Shown here: positions 28,442 to 33,666 of the stretch, piece after piece
How positions within the stretch are numbered: position 1 is the stretch's first letter
How the letters are laid out: each line of letters opens with the position of its first letter
NCBI GenBank assembly: GCA_023053685.1
Contig: JALIGW010000021.1
Coordinates: forward strand, 12,752,498 to 12,816,497
Direction: 5' to 3'
From: Diadophis punctatus similis
Lineage: Eukaryota > Chordata > Lepidosauria > Squamata > Dipsadidae
Length of the DNA: 64,000 bases
Notes under the pieces: generated by a model
Told to the model about the DNA's origin: nothing
Databases searched by the model: none
Seen by the model: the letters and a program-made list of their open reading frames with translations, nothing else
Program-made: the position numbers and the translations under genes

Positions 28442-28583
28442 ATCTACAACTACGGTGAGTATTGATGGAAAACTTCAAGAAGGATCAATGCAAGGTAGTT
28501 ACTGCTAACCATCTGGAGACGTTTAAAACTGGAAGCAAAGAGGAAGAAGCAGTTGAAGTTGTTTTAAAAGACAAATAAATAGA
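28442..28583 (+). pseudogene. CNMD: CNMD (chondromodulin-1) exon-3-like segment, disabled
   Basis: After a good acceptor (TTGTTTTGTTTCCAG, ending 28441) the sequence aligns by eye with the CNMD exon encoding the start of the luminal domain. Recognisable pieces in shifting frames are IYN, SIDGKLQEGSM (family: SINGKLQDGSM) and LETFKTGSKEEEAVEV (family: LETFKMGSGAEEAIAV). Between them the reading frame is broken: bases are missing after ATCTACAAC, a TGA follows at once in the entry frame, a TAA lies near ATTACTGCTAA-type sequence, and an extra base lies before CTGGAG. A GTGAGT stands at 28584, but the frame ends in TAA before it. CNMD is a type II membrane BRICHOS glycoprotein of avascular cartilage. 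The next exons (most of BRICHOS) are not visible downstream. Recognition rests on family knowledge, not a computed alignment. Confidence 0.75.
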
Positions 28584-28984
28584 GTGAGTTCCGATTTCAG
28601 ATCAATTCCTCTGTCTCTTTTGTTTCAAATTCAAGCACACCTTCAAGATTATTTTATCAAAATTACTGGGCCCATCCCTCTCTTTTTTTTCTCTCTCTCT
28701 CTCTTAATATTTTTCTATTCAATATTGCTTGTTCAGTAGTAAAGATTCTTAAAAATGGAAGGGCTTTAATAATCAGTTTCCTGGGTCCTCTGTGGTTGTT
28801 AAGGTTACTTTGTAAAAATGACATGAAATGAAATTGGCTTGGAGTAAACCTGAATTAGCTTTTTCTCTTTGCTGTTCGGTTGTTTTTCTAGGATAGATCA
28901 GCAAAGTTTACTTCCAGGCCCACTAACAATGCCAGATTGCAGTCCTTAAAAATATCCCAGTCTAGAGGTGAGGTTGGCTCCTCA
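28584..28984. other. No recognisable feature
   Basis: Contains a short (CT)n at 28690-28705. I looked here for BRICHOS-coding exons and found none. Confidence 0.4.
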
Positions 28985-29235
28985 GTTACTGGGTGGCCAG
29001 GTGATCCCTGATCCAAGTCCTGCTAAAGGCTGGTCTTGGTTGATCTCAAGAAACTATGTAAGACCAGACCTTGATTAATACTTGGATGGGTATCCCAAAG
29101 GTGCTTTTTCAGTAGGCAACTGGACTTTCTTGTTTTTTCTTTGAAGACGTTTCGCTTCTCATCCAAGAAGCTTCTTCAGCTCTGACAGGATCTACAGACT
29201 TGGATGGGTAAGCACCAGGTAACCCAAGGCTGAGG
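28985..29235 (+). repeat. 5S rRNA-derived repeat split by a family B insertion
   Basis: TTGATCTCAAGAAACTATGT and CTTGATTAATACTTGGATGG follow the 5S rRNA order (GATCTC..AAGCTAAG..GGTTAGTACTTGGATGGG). At 29093-29197 a family B hairpin arm (CCCAAAGGTGCTTTTTCAGT to AAGAAGCTTCTTCAGCTCTG) interrupts it. ACTTGGATGGGTA is duplicated on both sides (29080-29092, 29198-29210). The 5S-like sequence then resumes with AGCACCAGGTAACC. Confidence 0.65.
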
Positions 29236-29269
29236 AGGTTTGTGGACAAGTCCAGATGAGGTGAAACCT

Positions 29270-29950
29270 GGCTCAAAAATAGTCACTGTGAGAAGGATCT
29301 TGGAGTCTTAGTGGACGATCCCTTAAACATGAGCCAGCCGTGTGCGGCAGCAGCCAAAAAAGCTAATACAATCCTGGGTTGTATAAACAGAGGCATAGAA
29401 TCAAAACCACGTGAAGTATTAGCATTGCTTTATTAAGCCTTAGTAAGGCCACACCTGGAATATTGCATCCAGTTTTGGTCACCCCATTACAAAAAAAAGA
29501 TGTTGAGAGTTTGGAAAAAGTGCAAAGAAGAGCAACCATGATGATCAAAGGCCTGGAGACAAAATTGTATGAAGGACGGTTGCAGGATCTTGGTTTCACC
29601 AGTCTAGAGAAAAGAAGGACCATGGGTGACATGATAGCAGTCTTCCAATATTTGAGGGGCTGCCACAAAGAAGAGAGGGTCAACTTATTTTCCAAAGCAC
29701 CAGAAGGCAAGATAAGAAACAAAGGATGGAAACCTATTAAGGAGAGAAGCAACCTGGAATTAAGGAGAAACTTCCTAAACAGTGAGAACAATTAACCAGT
29801 GGAACAGCTTGCCACCAGAAATCGTGGGCACTCCATCACTGGAGATTTTTAAGAAGAGTCTAGACTCTAGACAGTCACTTATCTGAAATAGTATAGGTTC
29901 TCCTCTTTGAGCAGGGGGCTGGACTAGAAGACCTCCAAGGTCCCTTTCAG
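29270..29950 (+). mobile_element. CR1 LINE ORF2 C-terminal part
   Basis: Encodes HCEKDLGV-like residues, PLNMSQP-type residues, AAAKKANTILGCINRGIES, and after frame breaks LEKVQRRATMMIKGLETKLY and KRRTMGDMIAVFQYLRGCHK. The 3' end GGCTGGACTAGAAGACCTCC runs straight into (ATTCT)n. A TTATTAAGCC stop interrupts the frame near 29430. Confidence 0.93.
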
Positions 29951-30025
29951 TTCTATTCTATTCTATTCTATTCTATTCTATTCTATTCTATTCTATTCTA
30001 TTCTATTCTATTCTATTCTATTCTA
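29946..30025 (+). repeat. (ATTCT)n tail of CR1
   Basis: About 15 pentamers after AAGGTCCCTTTCAGTTCT. Confidence 0.97.
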
Positions 30026-30645
30026 GACAGGAGAAGTAGAAGCAGAAACCTCTATTTGTGGTTTAATCTTTTGATAAGCTACCGTCTTTGAAGATGGGTA
30101 TTTTCAGGGCCAGATTTAACCATGGGAAGATGAAGAGTATCTGACAAGTTGTCTGTATGACAACTTGTATGCCACTAACAATACTCATAAGCCTTCAATG
30201 CTAAGATTTTCAAACACATTAGCCAATTATTTATTAGATGTAGGCTAATAAACAAAACAATTCTGCAACTCCCAACAATTCCCCCTGGATGAATGGTTTT
30301 TGTTGCTTTTTAAAAATTTTATGTTGTGTTTTTTATTTTTATTTTTTATTTATTTTTTAACTGTTTTTTTATATATATTGTACCGTTCTTATTCGTGCTG
30401 TACGCCGCCCTGAGTCCTACGGGATTGGGCGGCCTATAAGAACTTTTAATTAAATTAAATTAAATTAAACTTAGAATTTCTAAGAGGCTGGGTTGTGGGG
30501 GAACAAAGAGATGCCATCTTTAGGGATGGCAGCTTCAGTCTAAGTTTTACCCAACGAGCTACTTTGATTTTGCATTTTCTGGGGAAATATTCCTCTTTCT
30601 CTTCTCAACTCTACCTCCTTGGATGGCACTCTCCTTTGTCTTCAG
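30026..30645. other. Mostly unremarkable; LINE 3' tail at 30395-30470
   Basis: GCCGCCCTGAGTCCTACGGG and GGGCGGCCTATAAGAACTTT followed by (AATTA)n match a LINE end also seen at 44990 and 53945. The rest is AT-rich and unassigned. Confidence 0.55.
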
Positions 30646-30710
30646 ATGTTGCATGAAATGAGATCGAACCCTCAAGCATTCTCAACTGGCAATGCCAAAA
30701 AAACAGGTTA
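30646..30710 (+). pseudogene. Possible CNMD exon-6-like remnant
   Basis: A pyrimidine-rich acceptor (CTCTCCTTTGTCTTCAG, ending 30645) precedes a segment whose second frame reads HEMRSNPQAFSTGNAKKTG. The CNMD family has NETRPSVQEDSQAFNPDNPY at the C-terminal end of the penultimate exon. In the entry frame a TGA follows within ten bases. Similarity is short and could be chance; its place between the exon-3-like and last exons fits. Confidence 0.35.
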
Positions 30711-32352: not shown

Positions 32353-32410
32353 GATAGGATGAGTTGGAAGGGACCTTGGAGGTCTTCTAGTCCAGCCCCC
32401 TCCTCAAATC
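32353..32410 (-). mobile_element. CR1 3' end seeding the pentamer array
   Basis: GAGTTGGAAGGGACCTTGGA and GGTCTTCTAGTCCAGCCCCC in minus orientation; only the terminal about 55 bp remain. Confidence 0.8.
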
Positions 32411-32927
32411 TCTGCATCTAGTTTCCACTTCCTGCAGAATTACATTTTTTTCAGAGTGAAGTGGCTGTACCTGCTAGAGCCCGAAACTAAAGGAAGCTCC
32501 TTTCAATCTATTTAGGAGTCTCCTGGCACTGCTTGGTCTTCTTCCTTGCTCATTTTATTATCTACTTACTGGAGTCTCCGTGGACTTTAAAAAAGCCGCT
32601 GCTTGCTCAACTGAAACTTTCTTTTAATGTAATCTTGTTTGCTTAGCCCATTAATTCCAGCAAGGCGCAGCTAAATAAATCCAGTCAATACTCTTCGGCC
32701 TTTTCAGTCCTGCGCTGCCACTGACATAGATCCTGAGATCGGGTCATGGGCGAGGGGGGAGCTCGAGTTTTGAGATCAGTAAGGTGCGCTCCAAAGAAAG
32801 TTGAAAAATGATACGGTTATTTTAATTTTTCAGTTTTGAATTTTGTTCTTCATCTGTGCTGAGCAGAGACTACAGTTATGGAACATTGTCCCATTGTGGG
32901 ACAATTGAAGACTTTATTCCGCATATT
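32411..32927. other. No recognisable feature
   Basis: Unique-looking. No CNMD exon recognised. Confidence 0.4.
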
Positions 32928-33252
32928 TCCTTCCTTCCTTCCTTCCTTCCTTCTTTCCTTCCTTCCTTCCCACTTTCCTTCCTTTCCTCCCTCCTTCTTT
33001 CTTTCCTTCCTTCCCTTTCCTTCCCTCCTTCCCTTCCTTTCTTCCTCCCTCCCTCCCTTTCCTTCCTTTTCTTTCTTCACTCCCTCTCCTTTTCCTTCCT
33101 TTCCTCCCCTCCTTCCCATTCTTTCCCTCCCTCGCTTCTTCCTTCCTTCCCTTTCCCTCCCTCCTTTCCTTTTCTTTTTCCTTCTTTCCCTCCCTCTCCC
33201 TTCCTTCCTTCCTTCCTTTCCTCCTCTGCCTCCCTCCCTCCCCTCCCCCCAT
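32928..33252 (+). repeat. Polypyrimidine (CCTT)n-type array
   Basis: CCTT, CCCTT and CTTTC tetramers/pentamers. Long low-complexity frames on both strands. Confidence 0.96.
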
Positions 33253-33259
33253 TCTCCAT

Positions 33260-33330
33260 GGCTGGTTGAGGAATTCTGGGAATTGAAGTCCATCCATCTT
33301 AAAGTTGCCATGGTTGAGAAACACGGAATC
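33260..33330. mobile_element. Family C fragment
   Basis: GAGGAATTCTGGGAATTGAA and TCTTAAAGTTGCCATGGTTG, one arm of the palindromic element. Confidence 0.75.
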
Positions 33331-33442
33331 CTGCTGCACTGTGGCATTTGTTTTTGTTTTTCCTTTTTACAATCACAAGAAACCAAAAGCCAGAGGTGTA
33401 TTGATGGACATTCCAGGCTGTGCTTGTTGCTTTCCTTTTCAG

Positions 33443-33666
33443 CACCTGGAAGGAGGTGACAAGGATCAGTTTGCCTTTGACCCACAGCTGGATCATGAAG
33501 AGATCTACTGCCTTGGGTCTACCAGGAGCTACACCCATCACCGACGGGTTGGTGAATCTCTCCTGGGCTGTTCTGCATGGCCTTACCATTTCTAGGGATG
33601 TCGGTCTGTTGCCGGCTTATCTTGCCTTCCAGTTGGTGGGTTGCGTGTATCCTGGGTGTTGTGCGG
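33443..33666 (+). pseudogene. CNMD: CNMD (chondromodulin-1) last exon, disabled
   Basis: The acceptor TTGCTTTCCTTTTCAG ends at 33442. The frame entered there reads FDPQLDHEEIYC and STRSYTH, then WPYHF, matching the CNMD C-terminus (family: FDPRLDHEGICC, RRSYTH, WPYNYQGCRS). A TAG at 33593-33595 stands where the family has Gln. About 12 bases later one nucleotide is missing and the match continues in another frame as CRLILPSSWWVACILGVV (family: CRVIMPCSWWVARILGMV). The normal stop is replaced by CGG. At least four cysteines of the disulphide-rich C-terminal domain are changed (to Tyr, Ser, His, Gly). Only the splice acceptor looks intact. The position, convergent with SUGT1, fits the orthologous locus. 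Confidence 0.9.

Follow-up and report, generated by a model that had tools for sequence, protein, structure and literature searches.

A decayed chondromodulin-1 gene (CNMD) between PCDH8 and SUGT1 in the snake Diadophis punctatus similis

Chondromodulin-1 is a cartilage protein that is thought to exclude blood vessels. Its precursor is bound to the membrane, and the mature C-terminal part, which is similar to its counterpart in tenomodulin, has anti-angiogenic activity (PMC6841647). In mouse nulls, endochondral bone formation and cartilage development show no obvious defect, but bone density is higher, bone remodelling is altered and fractures heal slowly (PMC6841647). Losses of developmental genes are known in snakes, with Tulp3 and Twist2 as cases described in the available parts of PMC11600591, and the case presented here resembles them in that one lineage has lost a gene that plays a part in development. 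Unlike Tulp3 and Twist2, CNMD is not named, nor is its synonym LECT1, in the portions available of the main text of two genome papers on snakes and limbless tetrapods (PMC11600591 and PMC5059746), and its remnant can still be read. The first-pass annotation knew of no earlier description, and we likewise found none of CNMD loss in snakes among the papers listed from open-licence full texts, which were searched by gene name or for snake gene loss, though supplementary gene-loss tables may still list CNMD. The loss adds a further example, with its remnant still legible, to the gene losses already known from single lineages.

In this study, eight CNMD records, drawn from lizards and snakes and from one worm lizard and one turtle, served as tblastn queries against a window of 64,000 nucleotides. 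Two CNMD matches on the plus strand, as the first-pass annotation had claimed, were recovered, corresponding to exon 3 and the last exon (exon 7). The exon 3 remnant occupies 28442-28583 and was matched over 28452-28560 by all eight records (E 2e-4 to 6e-7), while the last-exon remnant, at 33443-33663, was matched over about 33434-33663 by seven of the eight (E 7e-14 to 7e-18), the remaining query, Rhineura isoform X2, being without the last exon and matching exon 3 only. The top-scoring query was CNMD of the boa Candoia aspera, with E values of 7e-18 for the last exon and 6e-7 for exon 3. A human CNMD sequence found the same two exons, with matches to the last at 33434-33610 and 33589-33663 (E 1e-14) and to exon 3 at 28452-28493 and 28504-28560 (E 2e-4), and its seven other matches in the window all had E values of 2 or worse. 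The best E value obtained against the reversed window was 0.55, and other matches of CNMD queries in the window or its flanks with E above 0.3 were treated as chance. The two exon matches are collinear on a single strand, an acceptor AG stands directly before 28442 and before 33443, and a possible donor, GTGAGT, follows the exon 3 remnant at 28584. A Pfam search of 33438-33692, covering the last-exon remnant, returned no domain. The closest paralogue, TNMD, has a related last exon and BRICHOS exons in common with the remnant; nevertheless, TNMD was ruled out as its origin, as the remnant scores better against CNMD than against TNMD and the residue comparison agrees, and when matched to CNMD it outscores the other BRICHOS genes.

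Both readable exons carry disabling lesions. Exon 3 is broken into three pieces in three frames, reading IYN at 28442-28450, TVSIDGKLQEGSMQ at 28452-28493 and VVTANHLETFKTGSKEEEAVEV at 28495-28560, the last followed by TAA at 28576-28578, giving two frame breaks and a late stop where the first reading had claimed frame breaks and stops. The last exon reads HLEGGDKDQFAFDPQLDHEEIYCLGSTRSYTHHRRVGESLLGCSAWPYHF and then meets the in-frame TAG at 33593-33595, which both the sequence and the tblastn frames confirm. Shortly afterwards, near 33611-33616, lies the one-nucleotide deletion that had also been proposed: beyond GCRSV the match continues one base out of frame as CRLILPSSWWVACILGVV and extends past the usual end without the normal stop, whose loss is likewise verified. 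Five of the eight conserved C-terminal cysteines, which had been described as partly lost, are replaced by Y, S, H, G and S, leaving three, as against eight of eight in the boa record and seven of eight in the python record. Compared with CNMD/LECT1 of the BRICHOS family, the locus displays common exon 3 and last-exon homology, strand order and neighbours (PCDH8 and SUGT1), and differs in its stops, its frame breaks, its missing cysteines and the remaining exons that were not found. A working CNMD has an open frame, a membrane segment, a BRICHOS domain and the eight C-terminal cysteines, a combination that the remnant does not present.

No acceptable tblastn match to CNMD exons 1, 2, 4, 5 or 6 was obtained between the remnant exons or back to PCDH8. 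The expected place of exons 4-6, at 28584-33442, gave no CNMD match and consists of repeat-like sequence and simple arrays, the latter including 29951-30025, 31703-32343 and 32927-33218; the earlier statement that exons for most of the BRICHOS domain are not recognisable there stands, with the detection power for exon 4 being only 40-60%. A match to the membrane segment of boa CNMD at -4490 to -4612 from the window start (E 0.027) was rejected, being on the opposite strand, 29% identical and hydrophobic. Detection was simulated with boa-derived exons (exon 1 left out) at 10, 15 and 20% divergence with one indel, in 25 trials per exon; exon 2 was recovered in 80-100%, exon 5 in 72-84%, exon 6 in 100% and exon 4 in 40-60% of trials (80, 72, 100 and 40%, respectively, at 20% divergence), figures that are optimistic in that the query contained the source sequence. 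Because simulated detection was high for exons 2, 5 and 6, these are most likely gone or more decayed than the two survivors, while exon 4 could have been missed by the search.

Various repeats were also observed in the window. A purine-rich array at 6770-9215 has a 356-base period in about six copies, its long open frames being a by-product of the repeat, and further tandem arrays are located at 3973-4501 (60-base unit, 8.8 copies) and 52334-52720 (67-base unit, 5.8 copies). Retrotransposon reverse-transcriptase frames were found at 19062-20591 on the minus strand and at 20756-21592 and 56742-57710 on the plus strand, two of the three also matching Pfam ALKBH8_N beside the RT domain. AATAG-type arrays lie at 13585-13651, 18702-18785, 29951-30025 and 57953-58040, and with no threshold set there are 20 such arrays, totalling 1105 bp, in 208,900 known bases. 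In the parts of PMC6050309 available, arrays of this type are reported as expanded in colubroid snakes, a pattern that the content observed here fits, so that an advanced snake is the likely source.

The neighbourhood of the remnant was examined with PCDH8 and SUGT1 queries. PCDH8 was matched upstream by tblastn on the same strand as the remnant, at -24861 to -14735 from the window start, in three stretches without a stop. SUGT1 lies downstream, tail-to-tail with the remnant, with nine exon matches on the minus strand from 64790 down to 39443, all without a stop; those inside the window extend over 39443-62488, the ninth lies beyond it at 64790-64707, and one is weak (62488-62444, E 0.99). The fetched region has N runs of 100 and 5000 bases, both upstream of PCDH8, and the interval between PCDH8 and the remnant is free of N; PCDH8 and SUGT1 are not separated by any assembly gap, the matches to both are open, and the contig is well read here. 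PCDH8 - CNMD - SUGT1 is also the gene order on human chromosome 13. The order PCDH8 - remnant - SUGT1 supports the claim of decay at the ancestral locus, and these neighbours indicate that the remnant is the ancestral CNMD and not a retrocopy or a distant duplicate.

CNMD is widely distributed among vertebrates. In a protein collection the best 120 matches were listed per query, out of 440 for human CNMD, 404 for Pogona CNMD and 190 for a combined boa and python query, the last with scoring confined to the 7995 candidates sharing most words. Among the matches listed, CNMD records come from sharks, coelacanth, lungfish, frogs, turtles, birds, mammals and lizards, with at least 11 lizard and worm-lizard genera for the Pogona query. 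No snake appears among the matches listed for the human query, and the Pogona and the boa and python queries list only Candoia aspera and Liasis olivaceus, each a cluster of one sequence. The Candoia aspera record (P0121) has 409 residues and all eight C-terminal cysteines; its N-terminus is unusual, with one stretch replaced, and an 11-residue insert is present near the exon 5/6 border, and the gene model looks as if the predictor had skirted lost splice sites. The Liasis olivaceus record (P0139) is labelled low quality, is without part of exon 6 and misses four residues and one cysteine in the last exon, possibly reflecting a separate decay of CNMD in this python. Intact CNMD in relatives is thus represented by records, as distinct from genomes, of lizards and a boa. 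The first-pass annotation had raised the idea of a loss shared among snakes, which, as far as the records go, fails for snakes as a whole, since the boa record keeps its eight cysteines. The link to skeletal evolution that it also raised would be limited by Rhineura, a worm lizard that has no limbs and yet is represented by a CNMD record (P0123, an isoform ending after exon 6); this weakens limb loss as the cause, as limblessness by itself does not explain the loss.

With a single snake genome examined, the loss may be real and yet confined to this species or its genus, with a working CNMD still present in the rest of the advanced snakes. We regard this as possible but doubtful: the best 120 of the 190 matches to the boa and python query name no advanced snake, an absence that depends on the share of snake proteomes in the collection, whereas lizards, frogs and turtles rank high among the matches listed for the same query.

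An intact CNMD was also sought elsewhere in the 1.78 Gb assembly, in which some stretches read as N, and none was found, so that within the assembly the remnant is a unitary pseudogene, as originally claimed. A DNA search of the genome with the last exon returned only its own locus. A BRICHOS family search gave 16 genomic places, and when the loci retrieved were matched against human CNMD and TNMD, the remnant, TNMD and two weak matches stood out; L017 (E 0.022) and L008 (E 0.43), weighed as CNMD candidates, matched weakly and were taken as other members of the BRICHOS family. Lizard CNMD gave seven matches in the genome, comprising three to TNMD (at 35-60% identity), two to pieces of the remnant and two that are weak (E 2.1 and 8.4), and boa CNMD gave nine, three to TNMD, two to the remnant and four weak (E 0.3 to 7.5). 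The remnant's own exon 3 was not picked up in these genome-wide lizard and boa protein searches, and a second short or badly decayed CNMD copy would therefore escape too. Unlike the remnant, TNMD lies on another contig (C46:5706813-5715850) and reads open in all five exons matched (3-7); the 60 kb retrieved for it gave no match to its first exons. An intact CNMD could sit in unassembled sequence or in the stretches read as N, which do exist, making the present locus a dead duplicate; this is improbable, as the remnant is flanked by the ancestral neighbours and the query that finds TNMD three times at such identities would also have revealed an assembled CNMD. It is more improbable still that the remnant retains a role, be it through a short peptide or through a non-coding transcript: although acceptor signals and stretches of frame persist, the membrane exon was not found and most cysteines are lost. 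Hardly credible is the reading that the gene works and that its stops and shifts arose in sequencing or assembly, since an assembly error is unlikely given the open neighbouring exons of PCDH8 and SUGT1 and the several lesions across two exons, with five cysteines lost and exons not found besides.

The remnant clusters with boa and python CNMD with a bootstrap of 100, which marks the genome as that of a snake. Over 106 compared columns it has 14 derived residues in common with the boa and/or the python, seven of them with both, and in this comparison it displays 19 private changes. Rhineura, its record being without the last exon, was left out of the invariant-column sets. Twelve non-snake records are invariant at 71 of the compared columns, of which 45 are kept by the remnant, 60 by the boa and 56 by the python; among 144 columns invariant in twelve other records, 17 are changed in the boa and 21 in the python, in which 11 more are absent, and nine of the changes are identical in the two snakes. 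For thirteen non-snake records, leave-one-out counts of changes in invariant columns were 1-9. In the full-length tree, where deeper branching is poorly supported, the stem-snake branch measures 0.21, about the length of the branch between squamates and the turtle-bird-crocodile group (0.21). Judged from these sequences, the pattern suggests that constraint on CNMD weakened or changed before the boa-python split. Generally fast gene evolution in snakes, instead of weaker constraint, may lie behind the boa and python changes, and weaker constraint early in snake history falls short of proof because the boa record seems usable.

Taking these observations together, we hold it highly probable that CNMD exons 3 and 7 decayed at their ancestral place between PCDH8 and SUGT1, that no intact copy is to be found elsewhere in the assembly and this snake, likely an advanced (colubroid) one, is predicted to make no working chondromodulin-1, and that weakened constraint in early snakes was followed by lesions and the loss of the middle exons. 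On this course of decay, the relaxation of constraint would date back to early snakes; lesions would then have accumulated in the gene, and its middle exons would have disappeared through deletions and inserted repeats. Loss of the gene was probably tolerable, given that cartilage forms in mouse nulls with no obvious defect and that TNMD, open in this genome and similar in its C-terminal domain, may cover part of the anti-angiogenic role of CNMD. To a wider course of events we would give an even chance: constraint would have been weaker in the first snakes, the gene changing fast in boas, failing separately in pythons and being lost outright in the common ancestor of the advanced snakes. Cartilage in the latter would stay vessel-free without chondromodulin-1.

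As CNMD records span sharks to mammals and include lizards, its loss in a snake stands out. Such a loss would give a natural test of how important the protein is for vessel-free cartilage and heart valves, and the CNMD record in a limbless worm lizard allows limb loss to be told apart from other traits of the snake skeleton when a possible setting is sought.
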